Positions 44,343 through 61,529 of a stretch of 64,000 bases of DNA are shown here, in pieces. Source of the DNA: Hydrogenobacter thermophilus TK-6 (GTDB lineage Bacteria; Aquificota; Aquificia; Aquificales; Aquificaceae); contig NC_013799.1 in assembly GCF_000010785.1 (NCBI RefSeq), positions 992,001 through 1,056,000 of the forward strand, in the 5' to 3' direction. Position 1 is the stretch's first letter; the number at the start of each line of letters is the position of its first letter. The notes under the pieces were generated by a model, which saw only the letters and a program-made list of their open reading frames with translations, did no database searches and was not told the DNA's origin. The translations under genes and the position numbers were made by a program.

Positions 44343-45786
44343 ATGGGTATAGTTGTAGACAAGGAGACAGCCTTAAAGTTAGTGGAAGAGATACTCAGTC
44401 ATTATCCAGCAAAGGCAAGGAAAGATAGAGCAAAACACATTGCTGTGGCTGATCCCGGAGAGGAAGGGTGTGTTCCTAAGTCCAACGTAAAGACAAGACC
44501 TGGGGTGATGACTATAAGAGGATGCGCTTATGCAGGCTCCAAGGGTGTTGTTTGGGGTCCTGTGAAGGACATGATACACATATCCCACGGTCCCGTTGGC
44601 TGCGGATATTACTCAAGAGCTGGAAGGAGAAACTACTACATAGGAACCACGGGAGTTGATACCTTTGTAACTCCCCACTTTACTACTGACTTTCAGGAGA
44701 GAGATATAGTCTTTGGCGGTGACAAAAAACTTGAGAAAGCTATATACGAGCTAAATCAGCTCTTCCCTCTAAACAAGGGCATAACGATACAATCCGAATG
44801 TCCCATAGGTTTGATAGGGGATGACATTGAGGCAGTTGCAAGAAAGACATCGAAGGAGATAGGTAAGGTAGTTGTACCAGTGAGATGTGAAGGCTTCAGA
44901 GGGGTTTCTCAGTCTCTTGGTCACCACATAGCTAATGACTCTATGAGAGACTGGATTTACGAAAAGGGTGTAAAAGGGAAGGATATAGAACCAAGTCCAT
45001 ACGATGTCGCCATATGGGGAGATTATAACATAGGTGGCGATGCGTGGGCTTCAAGGAAAATCTTAGAAGCTATGGGACTTAGGGTTGTTACTCAGTGGTC
45101 GGGGGATGGAACGCTTAGCGAGGTGGCAAATGCCGTGAGAGCTAAGTACATACTGGTTCACTGCTACAGGTCTTCTAATTACTTGGCAAGATACTTTGAA
45201 GAAAAGTTTGGTATTCCTTGGATAGAATATAACTTCTTCGGACCCACACATTGCATCTATGAGAAAGATAGCCAAGCTCTTTGATGAGAGAGTGCAGGAA
45301 AGGACAGAAGAGCTCATAGAGAAAGTTTACAAACCGAGACTGGACAAAGTTATAGAAAAGTACAGGCCGAGGCTTGAGGGCAAAACGGTGCTTCTTTATG
45401 TAGGCGGTTTAAGACCGAGGCATATAATTACCGCCTTTGAGGACCTGGGCATGAACGTGGTAGCTACAGGATACGAGTTTGCCCACCAAGATGACTATCA
45501 GAGGACACTTCACTACATAGACAGAAACACTACCATAATAGTAGACGATGCTACCGCTTACGAGATAGAAGAGCTTACCAGAAAGCTAAGACCCGATCTG
45601 GTAGCCTCGGGTATAAAGGAAAAGTATCAAGCACAGAAGATGGGTGTACCCTTCAGGCAGATGCACAGTTGGGATTACAGCGGACCATATCATGGCATAG
45701 AGGGTTTTGAAATATTCGCAAGGGATGTGGATATGGCGATAAATGGTAACGTGTGGAAGTTTTTAAAGGCTCCTTGGGAACAGTAA
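44343..45786 (+). pseudogene. nifD: nifD, MoFe protein alpha chain, interrupted by a 2-base frameshift
   Basis: NifD holds half the P-cluster and FeMo-co. The first frame (313 codons, to 45284) has the P-cluster cysteines in [15 protein letters not shown] and [11 protein letters not shown] and the FeMo-co Cys in [12 protein letters not shown]. After EYNFFGPT the frame goes wrong. From 45247 the +1 frame gives [14 protein letters not shown], continuing to the FeMo-co His in [14 protein letters not shown] and the end at 45786. Adding one AC to the ACACA run at 45246-45250 restores [12 protein letters not shown], as in other NifD proteins. Without repair, no FeMo-co binding MoFe protein is possible. 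The second part has no ribosome site of its own. Confidence 0.93.
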
Positions 45787-45802: not shown

Positions 45803-46555
45803 ATGGGTATACATCATGAGCTGAACATAAAGGATCATCTTGAGTGCTTCAGGAATGATGAATTTAAGGAAATGATACAGAATAAAAGGAAAAACTTCGA
45901 GAACTGGGTAGGTGAAGAGAAGGTCAGAGAGGTAGCAGAATGGACAAAAAGCTGGGAATATAGGGAGCTGAACTTCAAGAGGGAAGCTATATCTATAAAT
46001 CCCGCTAAGGCATGTCAGCCTCTTGGGGCACTCCTCTGTGCCCTTGGCTTTGAAAAAACCTTGCCCTTTTCTCATGGTTCACAGGGATGTGTGGCATACT
46101 TCAGGACACATATGGCGAGACACTTTAAGGAACCCATACCTATGGTATCCACATCTATGACGGAGGATGCTGCTGTGTTTGGAGGTCAGAACAACCTGCA
46201 TGAAGGACTTCAGAATGCCATAGCCCTGTACAAACCAAAGATGATAGCAGTAAACACAACCTGTATGGCTGAGGTGATAGGGGATGATCTAAACAGCTTT
46301 ATAAATAATGCAAAAGAGAAAGGGTTAATACCTGTGGACTTTCCTATACCTTTTGCCCATACACCTTCCTTCGTTGGTTCTCATATTACCGGGTATGACA
46401 ACCAGATGAAGGGCATTCTTCAGTACATGACTGAGTACTTTGAGAAGTATGGCGTAGACAATGTAGATAAGTATGACCCAGATGAGGGTGAGTTTTACGA
46501 GCAAGGCGGGCTTTTAACATGGCTTAAACAGAACAGTTCAAAAGGAGGTGAGTAA
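45803..46555 (+). CDS. nifK: NifK N-terminal half (MoFe protein beta chain, split gene)
   Basis: First 250 residues of the beta chain: the P-cluster cysteines are in [22 protein letters not shown] and [12 protein letters not shown], followed by [15 protein letters not shown]. Standard NifK then runs straight into its second domain. Here there is instead a ~30-residue acidic tail ([12 protein letters not shown] and on) ending KGGE-stop. The frame of the second half starts 1 base later. AGGAGG before the ATG at 45803 is normal. The pair is either a true gene fission or a frameshift in a linker. Confidence 0.88.
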
Positions 46556-46556
46556 A

Positions 46557-47444
46557 ATGGGTGTCTTGAACTTTATATTGGGTTTTCATACATACCTGGA
46601 TGACTATAAAGAAGTCAAAAGGATAGTGAGCGAGTTTGGAGAAGACTGCATTATTCTCTCCGACCCATCAGAAAATCTTGACTCTGGGCTAAAAGGAGAA
46701 TACAACCTTTACAACGGTGGTACTTCACTAAAGGATATATACAAAGCCAAATTGTCCCTTGCTACTATTGCCTTCCAAAAGTATTCTACAGAAAAAACGA
46801 GAGAGTATATAGAAAAGGTTTGGAAACACCCCACCTATGTAGTTAGACCTTACGGAGTACAAGGAACGGACGAGTTTTTACAGCTTATCTCAAACCTAAC
46901 AGAGAAACCTATACCAGAAAGTCTAATTAAAGAAAGACAAAAGCTCCTTGATGCCATGGCAGACTCTTACTACTGGATACACGGTAAAAGGTTCGCTCTA
47001 TGGGGAGATCCGGACTTTGTTTACGGAATAACATCCTTCTTGCTAGAGCTTGGAGCGGAACCAGCTCACATTCTCTGCACCAACGGAAACGAAGAATGGG
47101 CAGAAGAGATAAAAGAATTATGTTCTAAGTTTGACAACGGAAAGTATGCTCAGATTTTTCCCGGTAAAGACCTTTGGCATATGAGAAGCCTTCTCTTTAC
47201 TGAACCAGTGGACTACATGATAGGCACCTCTTATGGAAAGTTTCTTTGGAGAGATACAGGAACACCTCTCATAAGGATAGGATATCCAATATTTGACCGA
47301 CACCATCTTCACAGGTATGGAATACTCTTTTACAGAGGAGCCTTAAACTTATTAGTGTGGATAGTTAACACCATCTTAGATGAGATAGATAGAAAAACCA
47401 TACATATAGCAGAAACTGACTATAGCTTTGATCTTATAAGGTGA
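46557..47444 (+). CDS. nifK: NifK C-terminal half (split gene)
   Basis: A 295-residue second part of the beta chain: FILGFHTYLDDYKEVKR, ALWGDPDFVYGITSFLLELG, HILCTNGNEEW, IGTSYGKFLWRD and IGYPIFDRHHLHRYG. It begins precisely at the NifK domain boundary (usual GKINIIPGF). An ideal ribosome site AGGAGGTGAG lies 6 bases before the ATG, overlapping the end of the first half (TAA-A-ATG). That arrangement is like the other gene junctions here and suggests independent translation. Confidence 0.87.
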   Translation: MGVLNFILGFHTYLDDYKEVKRIVSEFGEDCIILSDPSENLDSGLKGEYNLYNGGTSLKDIYKAKLSLATIAFQKYSTEKTREYIEKVWKHPTYVVRPYGVQGTDEFLQLISNLTEKPIPESLIKERQKLLDAMADSYYWIHGKRFALWGDPDFVYGITSFLLELGAEPAHILCTNGNEEWAEEIKELCSKFDNGKYAQIFPGKDLWHMRSLLFTEPVDYMIGTSYGKFLWRDTGTPLIRIGYPIFDRHHLHRYGILFYRGALNLLVWIVNTILDEIDRKTIHIAETDYSFDLIR

Positions 47445-47448
47445 TGTC

Positions 47449-48026
47449 ATGGATGCCTTGGAGAAGCTAAGAAGGTATCTACCTGCAGGTTATGTAGAGG
47501 AACGCAAGTATAGTGCAAAAGAAAATATACTACCAAGTAAGTTTTGCGGGGAGGGCCTTTGCATAATCTCTAATGGAGTTGCGGAACTTTGCATAAAAAG
47601 TAAAGTTTCTAAGAGAACCCTTGATATTATGCTTCCGGGCGATATCTTTGGCTTTATGTCTGATATCAGCCTTATGAAAAATTTTACAGTCATTGCTCTC
47701 ACAAGCGTTAGCTTGTTTTATGTTAATATGGACAACTTAAAAGGCTCGGAAACGAAAATCCTATCCTCGTTCTTGACATCTTTTCTTTAGCTCTATCAAA
47801 ACAGGCTTACCTATATGAGGTTTTGGCAACTTTACGTAAACCCAAAGCTAAAGACAGGATAAGGAGTTTTCTGAGTTTGTTAGCGAAGATTGTCGAAGAG
47901 AAGAAAACAAATCTCATAATAAAGAGGAAACAAATAGCAGGTATAACGGGGCTTAGCTACGAGAATGTAGTAAGGACAATGAGTAGGATACAAAAACAAG
48001 AAAGCAGGAGGGTCAGGCTATGGTAG
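47449..48026 (+). pseudogene. Crp/Fnr-family regulator, frameshifted
   Basis: The first frame (47449-47790) is a cyclic-nucleotide-type sensor domain (SNGVAELCIKSK, LPGDIFGFMSDIS) without the cAMP-binding arginine motif or Fnr cysteines at its start. It stops at 47788. The frame shifted by one base continues as LALSKQAYLYEVLATLRKPKAKDRI and an HTH (KQIAGITGLSYENVVRTMSRI), ending at 48026 without the usual wing. One T added to the TTTT run 47781-47784 joins them. It lies inside the nif operon; the target is unknown. The last 7 bases overlap the DUF269 gene. Confidence 0.8.
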
Positions 48027-52233: not shown

Positions 52234-52604
52234 AGGTGGCTTTTGCTACAAAGAGTCTTGATAAAATTGACGATCACTTTGGGCATGCAAAAACTATGGC
52301 TATTTACGAGGTAGATGAAACGGGTTACAAATTCATAGAATACAGACACTTTGAAGATATCCCTGATGAGGAATATGATAAAATAGCTTACAAGGTTGAA
52401 GGGATAAAAGACTGTACTATTGTATATGTAATCGCCATAGGTGCCACAGCAGCTGCAAGAATAGTAAAGGCAAGAATACATCCCGTAAAAGTAAATGAAC
52501 CAACACCTATAGAAGAAATGCTTGAGAAGTTGGTGGATACACTAAACACAAATCCACCACCGTGGCTAAGGAAGGCTCTTACAGATAGTAAAGAGAAGAT
52601 CTAA
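52230..52604 (+). CDS. nifX: FeMo-cofactor carrier NifX
   Basis: A 124-residue NifX: KVAFATKSLDKIDDHFGHAK and the IEYRHFED segment, then AIGATAAARIVKARIHPVKV. It carries NifB-co or VK-cluster between NifB and NifEN. It overlaps nifN by 4 bases and the convergent LolA-like gene by 4 bases. It is the last gene of the nifH operon. Confidence 0.92.
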   Translation: MKVAFATKSLDKIDDHFGHAKTMAIYEVDETGYKFIEYRHFEDIPDEEYDKIAYKVEGIKDCTIVYVIAIGATAAARIVKARIHPVKVNEPTPIEEMLEKLVDTLNTNPPPWLRKALTDSKEKI

Positions 52605-53209
52605 CGAAGTATAAAGATATCTTTTGAAAAACCTGTATTTATTAAAATGTCTTCAAAGAACACCTCCTCTATAAGTTGCCCCTCCCTGTTGTAAGATGCC
52701 GCGTAGCGGGGAAAGAGTGACTCTTTATCTAAAAGAAGGGTAAACCTCGTTATAACTTTCCTCACCGCGACACCACCTCTCCCCCTTACATCAATATAGT
52801 ATGAGGATCCTCTGTCCTCTGTAAGCATCTTCCCATTACCTTCTAACTCTTTTACAGTCCTGAGTAAAGTTAACACATCCGATTCATCCATACGATGACC
52901 CTTAGAGCTTTTAACTATAGGATTGTCTGGGGAAAGCTCTAGGATCAGATTTTTCATACTTTTAAAGGGGCGTACAAAAACTTTATCCATATTGGGGTCA
53001 TACACTAGCGTAACGCCTTTATAAGGTTCTATTATGTCCATTCTCACATACCCAGGAGTTGCATAGTAATACCTAAGTACCATACCATCGTTCACCTTCA
53101 TAACATACGAGTAAGACCTGTACTCCTTTTCAAATTTTTGTATGGCGTCATCAAGAGGGTTTGCAAAGGAGATATAACTTATAAAGAGAAGCAAAAGAAA
53201 GCACCTCAC
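52601..53209 (-). CDS. LolA-like exported lipoprotein-carrier family protein
   Basis: A 202-residue exported protein with a signal peptide (RCFLLLLFISYISFANP) and a LolA/LolB-like beta-rich fold: PGYVRMDIIEPYKGVTLVYD, VFVRPFKSMKNLIL and the late FEDILINTGF. It may carry lipoproteins or other lipids in the periplasm. I place the start at the GTG 53209, overlapping the previous stop (GTGA). It is paired with the cupredoxin-like gene. No clear link to nitrogen fixation. Confidence 0.72.
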   Translation of the reverse strand: MRCFLLLLFISYISFANPLDDAIQKFEKEYRSYSYVMKVNDGMVLRYYYATPGYVRMDIIEPYKGVTLVYDPNMDKVFVRPFKSMKNLILELSPDNPIVKSSKGHRMDESDVLTLLRTVKELEGNGKMLTEDRGSSYYIDVRGRGGVAVRKVITRFTLLLDKESLFPRYAASYNREGQLIEEVFFEDILINTGFSKDIFILR

Positions 53210-53574
53210 TTGACAACCTCTATTATTCCCCACATACCTTCATCTCTATGGCTCGGGAGAAAAGGAAGCTTCTTATCACAGTAAAATTCAAACTTGCCTA
53301 TTTGCATTGGCGTAAAGCTTATTTTCGTACCCTCTTTCTTAATCTCCTCTTTAATGTGGGTGCCGTTAATTTCAAGGACAAAGTTATGTGGTATAATACC
53401 ACCTTCCTTAACTATATTAAGTTCAACAGGGGTATTCACCTTAACCACTATGTAATTGGGATCAAAATAGTAGGAACCCGCCTTTATGTTAACTCGCTGG
53501 ATTCCATCTGGATCTATATGAGCAGAGTATCTCTTCTCAACACGCTCCTTCTGGATGGCTAATACTGTACTCAC
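53206..53574 (-). CDS. Cupredoxin-like protein
   Basis: A 122-residue cupredoxin-fold protein: SYYFDPNYIVVKVNTPVELNI, HNFVLEINGTHIK and GKFEFYCDKKLPFLPSHRDEGM. A His, a Cys and a second His in the right order could make a type 1 or other copper site. The N-terminus is uncertain. Upstream of the likely GTG start the frame encodes a hydrophobic stretch (YHFIFIFVSTVLA) that looks like a signal peptide but has no normal start codon. It probably functions in the periplasm, next to the LolA-like protein. Confidence 0.7.
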   Translation of the reverse strand: MSTVLAIQKERVEKRYSAHIDPDGIQRVNIKAGSYYFDPNYIVVKVNTPVELNIVKEGGIIPHNFVLEINGTHIKEEIKKEGTKISFTPMQIGKFEFYCDKKLPFLPSHRDEGMWGIIEVVK

Positions 53575-54646: not shown

Positions 54647-56080
54647 TCAATATTCTATTTCATGAACAGCATCCCAAACCCTTTTGAGAAAATCCTGCGG
54701 AAGATAGAAAGTAAATACAAGAAGTGTTATTAACATAGTGGCTGGGACAAGCAACATGAGAGGATGCAGATTCTTTTCCTTCTCTTTGCTTTCTTCGCCA
54801 AACAGCATGGGAAGCATTTGATAAAAGAGCCCTGCAAAAGCTAAGGATATGGATAAGAGCATCACCACACCCAACAGCGGACTTTTTTGCACAGTGCCTA
54901 CTATAGTGTACATCTTGCTTAAAAAGGTAGAAAAAGGAGGGAAACCCGATATACTAGCCAAACCGAAAGTGAGAATAAAGGCAGACCTTTTCATGCCTTT
55001 AAACAAGGCTTTCACCTCATTTATCTTTCTTTTGTGCAAAACGGAAAGTATATTTCCTGCAGCCATAAAAAGTACTCCCTTACTTAGAGCATGAAAAAGT
55101 ATATGAATCAAAGCACCGAAGGTAGCAAGACCACCCATACTTAAACCCAAAGATATCACACCCATGTTCTCCATGGATGAGTAAGCAAATAGCCTTTTGT
55201 ACTCACTTTGTTTCAGCATGAGGAGGCTTGCAAGGAATAAAGTAAGTGTGCCGAAAAATAGTAAAAATTTACCTGCATAAACAATGCCTGCTTTCTGGTT
55301 TATCTGGTAGAATCTTATTACACCAAGCAGTGCCGTATTTAGTAAAACGCCTGAAAGTAAAGCACTTATAGGACTTGGCGCTTGCGAATGAGCATCGGGG
55401 AGCCAGTTATGCATGGGAACAAAGCCTGCCTTTGTACCAAAACCCACAAGGGCTAATATGAAGGATAAAAACAACAATTTTTTATCAAGACTATTGGCAA
55501 CTGATATTATATTCACAAAAGAAAGGGAGCTAAGGCTTTCTCCATATAATTTAGCAGTAGCGTAGTACAAAAGAACCACTGCAAAGAGACCGAGGGTTAT
55601 ACCGATGGAGCACATCATCACATACTTCCAAGAAGCCTCGTAAGATTCTTTACTTCTATAAAAAGCTATAAGGAAGGCTGTTGCCAATGTAGTAGCTTCA
55701 AGCCCTACCCAATAAACACCGAGATTGTTTGAGAGTATGGACACGAACATGCTGAGTATAAAGGCATTTTTCCAAAAGTAATAGTATCTAAACCGCCTTT
55801 TTGGCACTCCTTGTGCTGTCTCCGTCCTTATATAACCGAAAGAGTATAAAGATACAAAAAGCTCAAGGAAAGAGACAGTTAACAGCATTAGACAGTTTAT
55901 TGGATCCGTGAAAAATATACCGTACATATAGGTTAAGTAACCATCCTGAAGGAATATATATATACCGGAGACGAATATCCCTACAGACAAAAGTATTTGA
56001 AGGTACGACATCTTGAAAACATCAAAGGAGAGTGAGAGTATTATTCCTAAACCCGATAACAGAAAAGGCATGTACATCAT
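54647..56080 (-). CDS. HyfF-type antiporter-like membrane subunit
   Basis: A 477-residue polytopic protein of the NuoN/MrpD/HyfF class: FGTKAGFVPMHNWLPDAHSQ with SPISALLSGVLLNTAL and HALSKGVLFMAAG are the proton-path motifs. It is the third antiporter-type gene of a group 4 hydrogenase-like complex encoded at 54.6-61.5 kb. It probably moves protons or sodium when electrons pass through the complex. It overlaps the HyfE-like gene by 4 bases. Confidence 0.87.
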   Translation of the reverse strand: MMYMPFLLSGLGIILSLSFDVFKMSYLQILLSVGIFVSGIYIFLQDGYLTYMYGIFFTDPINCLMLLTVSFLELFVSLYSFGYIRTETAQGVPKRRFRYYYFWKNAFILSMFVSILSNNLGVYWVGLEATTLATAFLIAFYRSKESYEASWKYVMMCSIGITLGLFAVVLLYYATAKLYGESLSSLSFVNIISVANSLDKKLLFLSFILALVGFGTKAGFVPMHNWLPDAHSQAPSPISALLSGVLLNTALLGVIRFYQINQKAGIVYAGKFLLFFGTLTLFLASLLMLKQSEYKRLFAYSSMENMGVISLGLSMGGLATFGALIHILFHALSKGVLFMAAGNILSVLHKRKINEVKALFKGMKRSAFILTFGLASISGFPPFSTFLSKMYTIVGTVQKSPLLGVVMLLSISLAFAGLFYQMLPMLFGEESKEKEKNLHPLMLLVPATMLITLLVFTFYLPQDFLKRVWDAVHEIEY

Positions 56081-56721
56081 TCCTTTAACACCTCTAAGGA
56101 TTCAACCTGTATGTCTTCAAAGCTTCTCCTTATACGAAGCAGAAGAACGGAGGATATCAACACACTTATGAGTATATCAAAAAGTACACCTAATTCCACA
56201 ATAAGGGGCATACCGGTTGCTGCACTGTTTGCCGCAAGGAAGATGGCATTTTCCATTATTAAAAGTCCAAGTATCTGGGAGAAAAGTATTTTCCTAATAA
56301 CCAAAAGCATTCCACCTATAAGTAGCGTTGACAGAGATGATACAAAGACAAACCTTCCAAAGAGGAACTCAAGCCCTGTTAGTTTTGTAGATAATATTGA
56401 TGATACTAACACAAACATGCCCGACATCACAATGGCTGACGGTATACTTACAACCATGTCTATTTCCCTCTCCTTACCTATCCTTCTTAAGACCCTAAAA
56501 AGCAGTATAGGTACAATCAGCCCCTTAAAAACCAGCGTAGCAAAAAAGGAAAGGTAAAGGTGAAAAACACCTGAATTGATAGCTACTAAAAGTATGTACA
56601 ATGAAAGCATCCAGGATTGAAGCATATTTAAATTTACAGCAAACTTTAGAAAAGGGGAAGCTACATTCAGTATGGATAGTACAAGTACCATAAGGGCAAA
56701 GAAACTGGCTAACTGTTCCAC
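56077..56721 (-). CDS. HyfE-type membrane subunit
   Basis: A 214-residue membrane protein with six or so helices, HyfE-like (MEQLASFFALMVLVLSIL, LIVPILLFRVLRRIG, GLLIMENAIFLAANSAATGMP with the NuoK-like glutamate). It is part of the membrane arm of the complex. It starts 1 base after the HyfC-like stop and overlaps the HyfF-like gene. Confidence 0.85.
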   Translation of the reverse strand: MEQLASFFALMVLVLSILNVASPFLKFAVNLNMLQSWMLSLYILLVAINSGVFHLYLSFFATLVFKGLIVPILLFRVLRRIGKEREIDMVVSIPSAIVMSGMFVLVSSILSTKLTGLEFLFGRFVFVSSLSTLLIGGMLLVIRKILFSQILGLLIMENAIFLAANSAATGMPLIVELGVLFDILISVLISSVLLLRIRRSFEDIQVESLEVLKE

Positions 56722-56722
56722 A

Positions 56723-57664
56723 TCACACCCCCATAGAAAGAATTAAGGTCAGAAGAGATAGCACAAAGGCAACCGACAGTATATTAGGTAATCTGAAAAG
56801 CCTCATCTTAGCATTTATAGATTCAACAAAAGCTAATACAGAACCTAAAAGGAGCATTTTTAGAAAGTAAAGAGCAAAGGCAAGCAAAAAGTAAAAAGGC
56901 TCTTGTGCTATGTAGGGAAATATTAATATGGAAATTAAACTCAAGAATACAGTAAGCCTTAAGTGAGATGCATACTCAAAAAGTAAAAGATGCCTGCCAC
57001 TTGCCTCAAGTATATTTGCTTCGTGTATCATAGTAAGCTCCAGATGCGTTTCTGGATTGTCAAAGGGTATACGAGCATTCTCTGCAAGCATTAGTACAAA
57101 AAGGCTAATTATAAGAAGGAATGGAATGCTTACAGAAAAGTGTTGTGTGTAACCTAATATCAGCGATTGAACCTCTTGCCCCAGCTTTAAAAAGGCGATG
57201 CTGAGGTCCCACTCTTTGGAGTACAGGCACACGGAAAAAAGCAGTAAGAGAAAAGCAGGTTCTGACAAACTGCTAAGGAACCATTCTCTACTTGAACCCA
57301 GCCCACCAAAAGAACTTGCCTGATCAAGGGCATAAAGGGTCAAAAAAAATACAGCCAGCGCCATTAGGTAAGTGATCAGTATAGGATTGGTGGGAGCCAA
57401 AAGAGGCTTGCCGTAAAAGAAAGGCATCATAAAACCGAGAAGTATATGAGGCAAAAGATACATAAAAGGGGCGAGATAAGAGACTAATGTTGCATCCTTT
57501 GAAAGTACTGTCTCCTTCTTAAGTAGCTTATATAGATTTCTGTAGTACTGGAAGGGGCTTACACCTTTCTGACCTCTTGCTCTCTGCTTTAGTCTGTGAA
57601 CAAAACCAGCAAAAAAAGGAGCCAAAATAAGCACCATAAGCCCCTGCAATATACCAAAAGCTAA
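56723..57664 (-). CDS. HyfC/HycD-type (NuoH-like) membrane subunit
   Basis: A 313-residue membrane protein of the NuoH/HycD family, which anchors the hydrophilic arm: MLILAPFFAGFVHRLKQRARG at the N-terminus, AENARIPFDNPETHLELTMIH in the middle. The conserved Glu/Asp loop typical of the family is intact. I take a start near MNLAFGIL (57670) or just after, because the longer frame runs into the upstream gene; the boundary is uncertain by a few residues. Confidence 0.82.
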   Translation of the reverse strand, partial: LAFGILQGLMVLILAPFFAGFVHRLKQRARGQKGVSPFQYYRNLYKLLKKETVLSKDATLVSYLAPFMYLLPHILLGFMMPFFYGKPLLAPTNPILITYLMALAVFFLTLYALDQASSFGGLGSSREWFLSSLSEPAFLLLLFSVCLYSKEWDLSIAFLKLGQEVQSLILGYTQHFSVSIPFLLIISLFVLMLAENARIPFDNPETHLELTMIHEANILEASGRHLLLFEYASHLRLTVFLSLISILIFPYIAQEPFYFLLAFALYFLKMLLLGSVLAFVESINAKMRLFRLPNILSVAFVLSLLTLILSMGV

Positions 57665-57666
57665 GT

Positions 57667-59520
57667 TCATGGTCTCACTCCGATAAAAAGTATGTAAAAC
57701 AGAAAGCAAAGAGCTAAAGTCAAAAATATGTAACTTATGTAAAGGTTTATGTTACCCGTCTGAAGGAACTTTCTTACATAGTTTGAAGCTTCTATCACAG
57801 AATAGACTAATGGTTTGTACACCCTGTCTTCAAAAACATCTTTAAGCTCTTCTTTATAGAGTACACTTCTCCTGAAATACTTTTTAACATCTTCATCAAA
57901 GCTCACCTCTGATAATGAGGAGTAAAACATAGAAAATAGTCTCCTTATGCTGTAAGTTTGAGACATGACAGTTGCCTGTGCCGAAGGATTTTCCTCATCT
58001 AAGCCGCACATCCATGTCTCATATACTCTAATATTCTTAGTTCTAAGGAAATAGAAAGCAATTAGGAGAGTTAGAAACAGGATTAAGGAAAAAGAAAGGG
58101 GTGTGTAAGACAAATCTTTTAGATAAAGTGGATAATTGTATGGGTATAATCTGGACAGAAAGTAGGGATATGTACCCACGAGGATGGAAAATACAACAGG
58201 AATGCTTATACTCAACAGTTCAAGAGGGTTTGGCTTGTCTGTTGCTTTTGTACCTCTGGATTTCCCCAAGAACACAAGCCCAAGAAACTTGACAAAAGTA
58301 GCTCCTATAAAAACGCCAGAAAGGGCAAGGACTGCAATAAGGAGAACAAAAGCATGACTCATCATATCTCCCTTCACTTGAAGTGCTGAGAAGAGAGCTT
58401 TGTAGAGAAGAAGCTCACTGAGGAACATGTTAGAGGGTGGTAGGGCTGACATATAAAGAGAGGCTACAAGAATAAGAAGAAAAAGTCCAGGACTTACTTT
58501 ATATAAGCCACCGAGTTTATTCATACTATACTCATGTGTCATCTTTACCACAATGCCCGCACCCATAAAAAGGGAACTTTTTAAAAGAGAATGATTCAAA
58601 AGATGCAAAAGCACAAAGGATACAGCCAAAGAGTATATAGGTTGAAGCTGTTTCTGCAAAGCAAAATAGGCCACACCCATGCCTATGGTAATGGCGCCCA
58701 CATTCTCTATGCTTGAATAGGCAAGGAATCTTTTAATATCCTTATCGATAAAGGCGTAAAGAGCACCATAAAAAAGAGAGAGGCTTCCTAAGAAGATGAG
58801 TAAGAAGCTTATGAATGCATACTGTTGGGATGAGAAATCAAAGAGAAATTTAAACATACCATAAATAGCCACATTTAGCATAACACCCGACATAAGAGCG
58901 GACACATTAGAAGGTGCTATAGGATGAGCGTGAGGAAGCCACACATGAAAGGGAACTATACCCGCCTTCACAAAAAAACCTGTAAGGGCGAGGAAAAGTG
59001 TAAGCGCATCTGCCATCCCCTTAAAACTATCAAAGCTAAAAGATGCAGTTTTTGCATAAAGCAAGAAAAAGGCAAGGATTATAAAAGCTGTTCCCAAATG
59101 AGTCATAAAAAGGTAAAGAAAGCCAGCCTTTAGAACTTCTTCTTTCTCTTCACTGATAACTAACAGGAAGGAAGATAGAGACATAAGCTCCCAAAAAAAC
59201 AGAAAGCTTATAACATCGTTACTGAAGATGGTAAAAAACATGGATAGCATGAACACGGAAAGAAATAAGAAAAAGTGAGGTTTATCTTGGAACGCCTTCC
59301 CATAAGACAGCGTGTATAAAGAGATGTAAAAGGATACAAAAAGAAGTATGCAGGAAAAGTAAAGAGGGATGCTTTCAAGCCTGAAGGAGAAGGATAAAAA
59401 GCCAAGAGGTACTGTAAAGTAATTGGGGAGGGTAAGTATGAAAAGCAGCATAAGCAGTGAGGTAAATAAAGGGCTATAAATAAGAACAGACAATATCTTC
59501 TTAGGTAAGCTTTCTTCCAT
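57667..59520 (-). CDS. HyfB/HycC-type antiporter-like membrane subunit
   Basis: A 617-residue polytopic protein of the NuoL/HyfB class: FVKAGIVPFHVWLPHAHPIAP, SNVSALMSGVMLNVAIYG, KRFLAYSSIENVG and LNHSLLKSSLFMGAG. First gene of the minus-strand half of the complex. I chose the ATG at 59520 (MEESLPKK), six codons inside the open frame. A divergent extended -10 lies just ahead, so the message may be nearly leaderless. Confidence 0.85.
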   Translation of the reverse strand: MEESLPKKILSVLIYSPLFTSLLMLLFILTLPNYFTVPLGFLSFSFRLESIPLYFSCILLFVSFYISLYTLSYGKAFQDKPHFFLFLSVFMLSMFFTIFSNDVISFLFFWELMSLSSFLLVISEEKEEVLKAGFLYLFMTHLGTAFIILAFFLLYAKTASFSFDSFKGMADALTLFLALTGFFVKAGIVPFHVWLPHAHPIAPSNVSALMSGVMLNVAIYGMFKFLFDFSSQQYAFISFLLIFLGSLSLFYGALYAFIDKDIKRFLAYSSIENVGAITIGMGVAYFALQKQLQPIYSLAVSFVLLHLLNHSLLKSSLFMGAGIVVKMTHEYSMNKLGGLYKVSPGLFLLILVASLYMSALPPSNMFLSELLLYKALFSALQVKGDMMSHAFVLLIAVLALSGVFIGATFVKFLGLVFLGKSRGTKATDKPNPLELLSISIPVVFSILVGTYPYFLSRLYPYNYPLYLKDLSYTPLSFSLILFLTLLIAFYFLRTKNIRVYETWMCGLDEENPSAQATVMSQTYSIRRLFSMFYSSLSEVSFDEDVKKYFRRSVLYKEELKDVFEDRVYKPLVYSVIEASNYVRKFLQTGNINLYISYIFLTLALCFLFYILFIGVRP

Positions 59521-59528
59521 TTTTTTAT

Positions 59529-59554
59529 ATTGTACCACAAAATCGTGCTAAAAT
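59529..59554. promoter_or_regulatory. Overlapping divergent promoters between the two halves of the complex
   Basis: On the plus strand TGCTAAAAT (59546-59554), on the minus strand TGGTACAAT (59529-59537): two extended -10 elements facing apart within 26 bases. Each lies 8-12 bases from its start codon, which implies leaderless or very short 5' ends. There is no clear -35. Confidence 0.5.
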
Positions 59555-59565
59555 AGTTTTGAAAA

Positions 59566-61050
59566 ATGTATCTGGAGGAAGAGATATCCGAGACGGAAAT
59601 TTATGGCAAGGTTGAAAGCATTATAAAAAAAGGTGGATATCTGCTTAGCATAGTTTGTAGCGACGAGAGGGCTTTAGGAGAAGATTTTGTTATAAGATAC
59701 TTCTTCAGGGAGGAGGGAATTAAGGTTTTGAAACTTTGCGTAGGAACTAAATTTCCATCCATAACTTCTTTATGCCCAGCTGCTAAAAACTACGAGAGGG
59801 AAATAAGGGATATGTTTGGATTGGTGCCAGAAGGACATCCTGACAGTAGGAGTCTTATGCTATATCCAGAGAACTGGGACCCCTCCATACACCCTCTACG
59901 GAAGGATTACGATGGTAAAAAACCTGAGTTTAAGAAATACGGCATATATAGATATAAAGAGGTTTTTGGTGAAGGCATTAACAAAGTTCTCGTAGGTCCT
60001 ATACATGCAGGTATCATCGAGCCAGGACACTTTAGATTTTCCCTCGCTGGCGAAGCCATACTACAGCTGGAGATAAGACACTTTTGGAAACACAGAGGTG
60101 TAGAAAAGGTATGTGAGGGGAAAAATCCAGAAGAGGCCCTTAGGATAGTCAGCCGTATATCTGGGGACAACGCGGTCAATATATCCCTCGCATACTTGAA
60201 TGCGGTGGAAACCCTTTTGGGTATAAAGCTTTCCCAAAGAGTGAGTTATCTAAGATGTGTCCTTGCAGAGCTTGAAAGAATCTGGAACCATGTTAGGGAT
60301 TTAGGTTGGCTATTTATGGACATAGGCTTTCCTCTACCAGCCCAGCACTTATTTTCCATTCAAGAACAGCTTATGAGATTGAACAAGGTAATTACTGGAC
60401 ACAGGTTTATGTTTGACGCCTTCTCTATAGGTGGTGTGAATGTAAAAATAGAAGATGAAGAGAAGAGATTGATAGATAAAATGCTTACACTGGTGGAGAA
60501 AGAAACAAAAGAGGTTGAAAGGTTTGCCATAGAAACACCATCGGTTAGAGATAGATTTGAAACAACCGGTAGGATTTTCAGAAAAACGGCGATGGAATTA
60601 TCTTTGTGTGGAGTTTGTGCCAGAGCATCAGGCTTAAAAAGGGACACAAGAGTGGAGTTACCCTATTTAGCGTACAAAGATTTTGATGTAAATGTACCTA
60701 TAAGCGAGCAAGGTGATGTTATGGCAAGGTTTATGATAAGGGTTGAGGAAATTTACCAATCGGTAAATCTTATAAGAGGCTTTTTAGAAAATCTTCCCAA
60801 TGATAATGCAGAGAAGCAAAACTTACTTTTTCCTTACTCATGGAGTGTGGGCAACGCTGAAACCCCAAGAGGTAATGCCTTTTTCTTTGTGATGCTTGAT
60901 GAGAAAGGTAATATATACAGGTTAAAGTACACAGACCCATCTTTTAGAAATTGGCCTGCTATACAGTATGCAGTTCTTGGGGATATAATAGCAGACTTTC
61001 CTCTTGTAAATAAAAGTATGAACCTCTCTTATTCGGGGAACGATCTTTAA
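59566..61050 (+). CDS. Large subunit of an energy-converting hydrogenase-related complex (NuoCD-like)
   Basis: A 494-residue HycE/HyfG-like fused protein: an N-terminal NuoC-like part (AAKNYEREIRDMFGLVPEGHP, the HPLRKDY motif) and a NuoD/hydrogenase-large-type part (GPIHAGIIEPGHF, LRCVLAELERIWNHVRDLG). The nickel ligands are gone: the first CxxC of HycE is replaced (SRISGDNAVN) and the C-terminal DPCxxC reads NLSYSGND. So it cannot carry a NiFe centre. It resembles the Ehr complexes, of unknown electron donor. The ATG at 59566 lacks a ribosome site. Start and promoter nearly coincide. Confidence 0.88.
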   Translation: MYLEEEISETEIYGKVESIIKKGGYLLSIVCSDERALGEDFVIRYFFREEGIKVLKLCVGTKFPSITSLCPAAKNYEREIRDMFGLVPEGHPDSRSLMLYPENWDPSIHPLRKDYDGKKPEFKKYGIYRYKEVFGEGINKVLVGPIHAGIIEPGHFRFSLAGEAILQLEIRHFWKHRGVEKVCEGKNPEEALRIVSRISGDNAVNISLAYLNAVETLLGIKLSQRVSYLRCVLAELERIWNHVRDLGWLFMDIGFPLPAQHLFSIQEQLMRLNKVITGHRFMFDAFSIGGVNVKIEDEEKRLIDKMLTLVEKETKEVERFAIETPSVRDRFETTGRIFRKTAMELSLCGVCARASGLKRDTRVELPYLAYKDFDVNVPISEQGDVMARFMIRVEEIYQSVNLIRGFLENLPNDNAEKQNLLFPYSWSVGNAETPRGNAFFFVMLDEKGNIYRLKYTDPSFRNWPAIQYAVLGDIIADFPLVNKSMNLSYSGNDL

Positions 61051-61061
61051 GGAGGTGAAGC

Positions 61062-61529
61062 GTGTTTTTTCTTTTGAAAAGATCCTTCCGGGTGAAGACA
61101 GAAGATTTAAAGGTGAAACATAAAAAGGTCATTAGTCTATTTATAAGAGAAGTGGATACAGGTTCGTGTAATGCTTGCGAGATTGAAGTAGCAAATCTTA
61201 ACAACCCATACTACGATGTAGAAAGATTTGGCATAAAGTTTGTCGCCTCACCCAAACATGCCGATGTTTTGCTCATAACAGGATGCGTTACAAGAAACAT
61301 GTTGATACCTATGATAAAAGCTTATGAAAATGCTCCCGCTCCGAAGTTTGTATTGACCGTTGGGGACTGCACCGCTGAATGCCCCTACTTCAAAGATTCT
61401 TACGCAGTAGAGGGTCCTGTATCAAAACACTTGCCTGTACATGTACATGTACCAGGCTGTCCTCCTGAACCAGCACAGGTAATAGAAGGTCTTTTAAAGC
61501 TGAGTCATTTTGCAGATAAAGACTTATAA
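61062..61529 (+). CDS. HyfI/NuoB-type small subunit
   Basis: A 155-residue NuoB/HycG-like protein with the N2-type cluster cysteines: GSCNACEIEV, TGCVTRN, VGDCTAECP and VPGCPPEPAQ. It connects the electron chain with the large subunit. Starts at a GTG after GGAGGTGAAGC. It ends 3 bases before the tRNA-Val. No flavin or [4Fe-4S] polyferredoxin subunit (HyfA/HycB) gene is present nearby. Confidence 0.85.
   Translation: MFFLLKRSFRVKTEDLKVKHKKVISLFIREVDTGSCNACEIEVANLNNPYYDVERFGIKFVASPKHADVLLITGCVTRNMLIPMIKAYENAPAPKFVLTVGDCTAECPYFKDSYAVEGPVSKHLPVHVHVPGCPPEPAQVIEGLLKLSHFADKDL

Follow-up and report, generated by a model that had tools for sequence, protein, structure and literature searches.

We analyzed a 64,000-nucleotide stretch of the Hydrogenobacter thermophilus TK-6 genome (bases 992001 to 1056000 of the single 1,743,135-base chromosome; hereafter the window), in which positions 54647 to 61529 encode six subunits: HyfF, HyfE, HyfC and HyfB on the minus strand and HyfG and HyfI on the plus strand. 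Judged from its sequence, the locus encodes an Ehr-type complex, a nickel-free descendant of a six-subunit (HyfB-C-E-F-G-I) group 4 hydrogenase. The predicted complex has an intact proton-translocation module, a remodelled and strictly conserved pocket at the former NiFe site, and ligands for one [4Fe-4S] cluster in HyfI. Its conserved job may be ion translocation gated at the HyfG pocket without steady electron flow, a reading to which we give somewhat less than an even chance.

The locus is organized as two divergent transcription units, HyfB-C-E-F on the minus strand and HyfG-HyfI on the plus strand, and Pfam and NCBIfam bear out the names of the six proteins. The features are as follows.

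54647..56080, minus strand: HyfF-type antiporter-like subunit, 477 amino acids (PF00361, 1e-52; NCBIfam hydrogenase 4 subunit F, 1.6e-103, below cut-off)
56077..56721, minus strand: HyfE-type subunit, 214 amino acids (NCBIfam hydrogenase 4 membrane subunit, 1.7e-16, below cut-off)
56723..57709, minus strand: HyfC/NuoH-type subunit (PF00146, 3.5e-25; open reading frame from TTG 57709)
57667..59538, minus strand: HyfB-type antiporter-like subunit, 623 amino acids (PF00361, 5.4e-49; NCBIfam hydrogenase 4 subunit B, 2.9e-130, below cut-off)
59539..59565, no strand: 27-bp gap between the called start codons of the divergent units (sequence)
59566..61050, plus strand: HyfG, fused NuoC-NuoD-like large subunit, 494 amino acids, nickel-less (PF00329 and PF00346; AlphaFold2 model)
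60160..60171, plus strand: HyfG codons 199 to 202 (SGDN), at the position of the nickel-binding CxxC1 (alignment)
61027..61038, plus strand: HyfG codons 488 to 491 (SYSG), at the position of the nickel-binding CxxC2 (alignment)
61062..61529, plus strand: HyfI small subunit, 155 amino acids, four [4Fe-4S] ligands (PF01058, 4.7e-26; C36, C39, C103, C133)
61167..61178, plus strand: HyfI codons 36 to 39 (CNAC), two cluster ligands with hydrogenase-type spacing (alignment)

The nickel site of HyfG is replaced by a conserved motif

An earlier reading of this DNA, made from the sequence alone (the sequence-only reading), had proposed that the large subunit lost both CxxC pairs, and alignment bore this out. 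HyfG reads SRISGDN and NLSYSGND, which align to the first (RVCGICG) and second (CYSC) CxxC pairs of E. coli HycE/HyfG, respectively. S199, N202, S488 and G491 stand at the four nickel-ligand cysteine positions, unlike in group 4 [NiFe] large subunits. The protein ends at residue 494, three residues past SYSG, with no C-terminal extension. E. coli HycE, the large subunit of formate hydrogenlyase, aligns along the length of HyfG, and complex I NuoD aligns along its NuoD part. The earlier description of the subunit was corrected in one respect, as Pfam and the structure match showed that HyfG also carries a fused NuoC domain. The best structural match of the AlphaFold2 model (mean predicted local distance difference test score, pLDDT, 90.6) was E. 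coli HycE (7z0s_E; Z 47.9, 489 residues, 1.9 Å), with the NuoC domain included.

Bacterial and archaeal genomes were then scanned once using an alignment of Aquificota HyfG as the query. At least 579 stretches of the genome collection encode HyfG relatives, nickel-containing forms included, and the best 80 of the 579 confirmed relatives were kept, so the sample is biased towards the query. Many of the sampled loci came from metagenome bins, and the tree inferred from them, built quickly, has weak backbone support. Among the 92 HyfG sequences scored, 14 keep all four nickel ligands and 78 are nickel-less, with a partial sequence and one intermediate set aside. The replacement is fixed in the nickel-less proteins (S199 in 77/78, G200 in 77/78, D201 in 72/78, S488 in 78/78, G491 in 77/78 and D493 in 78/78), and the same fixed motif replaces the nickel ligands across many phyla. 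D201 and N486 stand where the nickel forms have Ala/Val and Glu. When the closest relative was compared, nonsynonymous divergence (dN) was far below the near-saturated synonymous divergence (dS). Since the replacement residues are fixed in relatives and dN is far below dS, loss of the nickel site does not reflect chance or decay.

A Desulfosporosinus HyfG (locus L091, 4376 to 5827) has one cysteine left in each nickel-binding pair (SGIC and SYAC), and this half-ligand form is a possible intermediate in nickel loss. With the half-ligand form counted as its own state, three changes of nickel state are needed on the HyfG tree, whose root is not fixed, and nickel may thus have been lost more than once.

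The position of the quinone-site tyrosine of NuoD is Gly200 in HyfG, while the two NuoCD proteins of the same genome keep RMDY. A NuoD-like quinone site is therefore unlikely, which weakens the quinone link suggested in the sequence-only reading.

The proton path of the membrane subunits is intact

HyfB, HyfC, HyfE and HyfF had been described as present with intact proton-path motifs, and this was confirmed: across 69 to 81 relatives, the Glu, Lys and His residues in the proton paths of HyfB, HyfF and HyfC hardly vary. In HyfF, E128, K152, K217, K295, H330 and K334 are kept in 98 to 100% of 81 relatives. E117, K191, H205, K269, E278, H312, H316, K320 and E375 of HyfB and E150, E210, E224, E235, E296, R141 and R303 of HyfC are invariant, and K66, E157 and D182 of HyfE are conserved. 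Antiporter-like and NuoH-like membrane subunits thus occur together with a NuoB-like subunit, as in Ehr complexes.

Cofactor loss among related loci is nested

As the sequence-only reading had it, a HyfI subunit is present, but its cysteines are not of the NuoB type. HyfI has CNAC, that is CxxC, plus C103 and C133, in place of the tandem Cys-Cys of E. coli NuoB, which sets the complex apart from complex I. HyfI also lacks the N-terminal ferredoxin-like 4Fe-4S domain that the nickel-containing relatives carry. C36, C39, C103 and C133 are invariant in the Aquificota HyfI set.

The cofactor states of about 90 related loci were judged from alignments and motifs. The ferredoxin-like domain was called by CxxCxxC motifs, and Pfam confirmed Fer4 families in the one nickel-type HyfI tested (L087). 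Thirteen loci have the nickel site, the HyfI ferredoxin-like domain and the cluster ligands (class a), and in one further nickel locus the ferredoxin-like domain was not seen. Nickel is absent from 14 loci that have the ferredoxin-like domain and cluster ligands (class b), and both nickel and the ferredoxin-like domain are absent from 39 loci that keep the cluster ligands (class c), among them the window locus and all other Aquificota copies having HyfI. In another 13 loci, the cluster ligands are lost as well (class d). The cluster state of a Rokubacteria locus (L097, GSPNCCE) was ambiguous. None of the about 90 loci lacks the cluster yet keeps nickel or the ferredoxin-like domain. The order of loss read from these alignments is nested, in that the nickel site went before the HyfI ferredoxin-like domain and this domain before the remaining HyfI cluster ligands, and the window complex is placed at the single-cluster stage.

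Relatives without cluster ligands keep the pocket and the proton path

The class (d) members are Patescibacteria-type bins, Methanosarcina, Methanoregula, a Dehalococcoidales bin and a Micrarchaeota bin. They form two lineages without redox ligands, Patescibacteria and a group with the methanogens, Dehalococcoidales and the Micrarchaeota genome. Cluster loss took two changes on the HyfG tree, and a single clade was rejected (approximately unbiased, AU, test p 1.7e-7). Class (d) HyfI has lost Cys36, Cys103 and Cys133, most often to Asp, Thr or Asn, and the rest of the protein is strongly conserved. The model of one such HyfI (pLDDT 88.7) matched MbhJ of membrane-bound hydrogenase and NuoB of Aquifex aeolicus, and the fold is predicted to be retained in cluster-less HyfI. 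The pocket residues H147, E152, H176, S199, G200, D201, D384, R388, E432, R435, S488, Y489 and D493 are unchanged in 13/13 class (d) HyfG proteins, and all proton-path residues of HyfB, HyfF and HyfC listed above are kept in the class (d) loci that could be aligned.

In 8 of the 9 Patescibacteria-type class (d) genomes searched, the two Ehr proteins are the only PF00361 proteins, and an F-type ATP synthase is encoded in all nine. In most of the Patescibacteria-type class (d) genomes searched with PF01058, no intact protein of this family other than the HyfI of Ehr was found, and Ehr is the sole complex-I-like complex in most class (d) Patescibacteria. The Ehr genes lie directly downstream of F1 ATP synthase genes in three loci (L092, L096 and L106) and near atpC in L093; these loci are related and do not count as independent events. 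ATP synthase genes were recognized only beside Patescibacteria-type Ehr loci. A bin labelled Thermoleophilia (L112) also has a cluster-less Ehr contig of the Patescibacteria type, which is probably Patescibacteria contamination of the bin.

Ehr is patchily distributed in Aquificota

An Ehr homologue was found in about 15 of the 121 Aquificota genomes (14 clear and one split over two contigs) and was absent from the four same-genus genomes sampled. The complete Aquificota loci share the six genes but nothing more, and their gene orders and surroundings vary; HyfB and HyfC were not recognized in the G011 copy. On the tree, Aquificota HyfG falls into three separate clades. One holds the window HyfG with G007 and G013 and has a Myxococcota metagenome bin as its sister; another holds Hydrogenothermaceae-like copies and a second Aquificaceae group; and the third is G011, placed among Nitrospirota. 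Horizontal transfer is the simplest reading of these three clades, and Ehr appears to be an accessory, patchily inherited complex.

Assignment to the Ehr class, also made in the sequence-only reading, held up. HyfG is in one tree with sequences of N. moscoviensis, Nitrosotalea and Patescibacteria, lineages with described Ehr (PMC12342949, PMC10432482, PMC7304191), and the branch joining the nickel-less HyfG sequences has moderate support (87). The window complex is almost certainly an Ehr complex. Among the clustered neighbors of about 90 Ehr loci, no conserved electron-donor or partner gene was found, and the largest neighbor clusters were generic (a sensor-kinase-like group and ABC transporter ATPases).

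nifD and Ehr seldom occur together in Aquificota

A nif cluster (nifA, nifH, nifD, split nifK, nifE, nifN and nifX) lies 2 to 13 kb from the Ehr genes. In the window, nifD (44343 to 45786) is frameshifted near 45252, and an intact NifD of 482 to 485 amino acids is encoded in G039, G013 and G009. The frameshift fits the published lack of N2 fixation in TK-6, though it could also be a sequencing error; H. thermophilus TK-6 does not fix N2 and related isolates do (PMC6307999). We found nifD in 9 of the 121 Aquificota genomes, together with Ehr in 3 (Fisher p 0.08, or 0.24 without the window genome). Six of the nine nifD-positive genomes have no Ehr, and 12 of the 15 Ehr-positive genomes have no nifD. 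Neither of the two closest Ehr loci adjoins nif, and in G013 Ehr and nifD are about 900 kb apart in contig coordinates. The nitrogenase link drawn in the sequence-only reading is not supported, given the frameshifted nifD, the lack of a genome-wide association, the location of the relatives' Ehr and the non-fixing phenotype, and the complex is probably not part of nitrogen fixation.

Proposed function and alternatives

We suggest that HyfB, HyfF, HyfC and HyfE would translocate ions (H+ or Na+) and that the flow would be gated at the HyfG pocket by protonation, ligand binding or conformational change. On this view, the single HyfI cluster of the window complex would serve locally as a redox sensor or gate, or else as a one-electron site, and not as a link of a long electron chain. 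A continuous electron chain would not be needed, because relatives dispense with the cluster altogether. In a wider version, about which we are more doubtful, Ehr complexes would not be oxidoreductases and would have arisen as ion translocators from a hydrogenase losing its redox centers in order, with at least two lineages left without any redox center and the window complex an intermediate with one leftover or regulatory cluster. Nested cofactor loss and the natural forms without cluster ligands offer a direct test of whether the widespread Ehr complexes move electrons. If they do not, ion pumping would be separated from redox chemistry within the complex I superfamily, which bears on a long-standing mechanistic question.

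Several points weigh against ion translocation without electron flow. Every Aquificota copy that has HyfI retains all four of its cluster ligands, as do most other Ehr, which suggests that the cluster matters there, and the cluster-less lineages are not close to the window protein and may have changed function. With no energy input of its own, a translocator has to work downhill or be powered by a second reaction, for which no candidate emerged, and the literature covered gave no biochemical data on any Ehr. Since the cluster is retained in the window copy, a redox-driven proton pump is almost as likely. In such a pump, a soluble carrier, with ferredoxin the obvious candidate, would dock on HyfI, and electrons would pass from the cluster to a substrate in the HyfG pocket (a quinone, a sulfur compound or another) to drive proton translocation, or the reverse. 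The invariant HyfI cysteines, the intact coupling residues of HyfC, and the redox-pump function of the homologous complex I and formate hydrogenlyase argue for it. On the other hand, the NuoD quinone tyrosine is a glycine, no partner oxidoreductase recurs nearby, and relatives keep the pocket and channel without any cluster. The ferredoxin-like domain of the nickel-containing relatives is also missing, so that the ferredoxin link of the sequence-only reading stands only in part: a reaction with ferredoxin is possible, but a dedicated docking domain is absent.

Alternatively, ion flow could be coupled to a non-redox reaction in the HyfG pocket such as CO2 hydration, by analogy with the cyanobacterial CO2-uptake complex I and the DAB transporters. 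The Glu, Asp, Ser, Tyr and Arg residues of the pocket and the new Asp201 are kept in cluster-less forms and many of the carriers are autotrophs, but no metal-binding motif or carbonic-anhydrase-like subunit came to light and fermenters (Patescibacteria) and methanogens are carriers too, which makes this coupling unlikely. Even less probable is reverse electron flow to low-potential ferredoxin for nitrogenase or the reverse tricarboxylic acid (TCA) cycle, as the sequence-only reading had it. The nearby nif cluster and ferredoxin-dependent CO2 fixation in the phylum (PMC5441870) would favor it, but nifD is frameshifted in a strain that does not fix N2, Ehr and nifD are mostly apart, and the absence of Ehr from about 88% of the sampled Aquificota also leaves the reverse TCA cycle a weak candidate. 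That the complex is a hydrogenase after all, assembling with a separate nickel-containing large subunit, is very improbable. The genome has five nickel-type large subunits (PF00374), but each has a PF01058 small subunit of its own no more than about 3 kb away, the remaining PF01058 proteins are only NuoB and this HyfI, and the genome search thus left no unpaired nickel large subunit. We consider a decaying hydrogenase relic equally improbable: lost nickel ligands and patchy presence would suit it, but all six frames are open, and the dN/dS comparison and the replacement motif shared by many phyla refute a pseudogene.

Comparison with known systems

A six-gene Ehr locus or a nickel-less large subunit is known from Nitrospira, comammox, ammonia-oxidizing archaea, Acidithiobacillus, Cupriavidus and Patescibacteria (PMC5596200, PMC10284858, PMC12342949, PMC10432482, PMC7735108, PMC2864759, PMC7304191), and in those reports its function is unknown or guessed. 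According to a passage citing this result in PMC12342949, H2 did not raise Ehr expression in N. moscoviensis. Proteomes of Geobacter were found to contain Ehr subunits (PMC8691401). A passage of PMC7304191 reports missing metal-binding cysteines in Patescibacteria Ehr. Full-text search, with subscription journals outside its coverage, found no published work on cluster-less Ehr or HyfI cluster loss.

The hyfBCEFGI loci of Nitrospira, ammonia-oxidizing archaea, Acidithiobacillus and Cupriavidus have the same six subunits as the window where the gene set is given and a large subunit without both CxxC pairs where examined. The window copy differs in its two divergent units, which are shared with its nearest relative (L050), and belongs to a small thermophile clade. 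The nickel-containing Bacillota/Planctomycetota relatives, probably the group called 4f in the literature, share with the window the six genes, the HAGIIEPGHF motif, the NKSxxLxYxxxD ending and the absence of a C-terminal extension, whereas they keep CGxC, CYxC and usually a HyfI with the N-terminal ferredoxin-like domain. E. coli formate hydrogenlyase/hydrogenase 4 (HycE, HyfG; 7z0s) is the closest solved fold over the full HyfG including the NuoC domain, but the window has no HyfA/HycB, HyfH/HycF, formate dehydrogenase, maturation tail or nickel ligands. Respiratory complex I shares homologues of NuoH, NuoL/M/N, NuoB, NuoC and NuoD, while NuoE, F, G and I, the quinone tyrosine and the Cys-Cys pair (CxxC in HyfI) are absent from the window complex, which is a further member of the known, functionally unexplained Ehr class.

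Locus details and neighboring genes

As the sequence-only reading had stated, no polyferredoxin or flavin subunit is encoded beside the locus, and no NuoI-like gene, which would supply a ferredoxin-docking subunit of the Mbx kind, was recognized there. Formate dehydrogenase, HycB/HyfA and HycF/HyfH subunits are absent from the locus, with no recurring partner in other loci, and no zinc-binding CO2-hydration subunit was recognized among the few neighbors scanned with Pfam.

HyfC probably starts at ATG 57670, with a 4-base overlap with the HyfB stop, rather than at TTG 57709. Promoter and terminator scans gave counts about as expected by chance. An A/T-rich -10-like sequence occurs on both strands at 59520 to 59570, with no clear ribosome site; together with the 27-base spacing of the starts, this may indicate near-leaderless transcripts. 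The HyfI gene is preceded by a strong ribosome site, AAGGAGGTGA.

Elsewhere in the genome, locus L064 (405000 to 424900) is a second complex I operon with its own NuoCD and seemingly without NuoB, and the single NuoB detected by PF01058 lies beside a NuoCD other than that of L064. Between the nif and Ehr genes, window positions 52601 to 53574 encode a cupredoxin-like protein and a 210-amino-acid protein without a Pfam or NCBIfam match. A FixK/CRP-like regulator gene inside the nif cluster (47449 to 48023) is frameshifted near 47735 relative to three relatives. NifK is encoded by two consecutive genes (45803 to 47444; 250 and 298 amino acids), the second with its own ribosome site, which match nifK positions 5 to 212 and 220 to 516. 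The same split is found in G013 and G009, which suggests a conserved trait and not damage.

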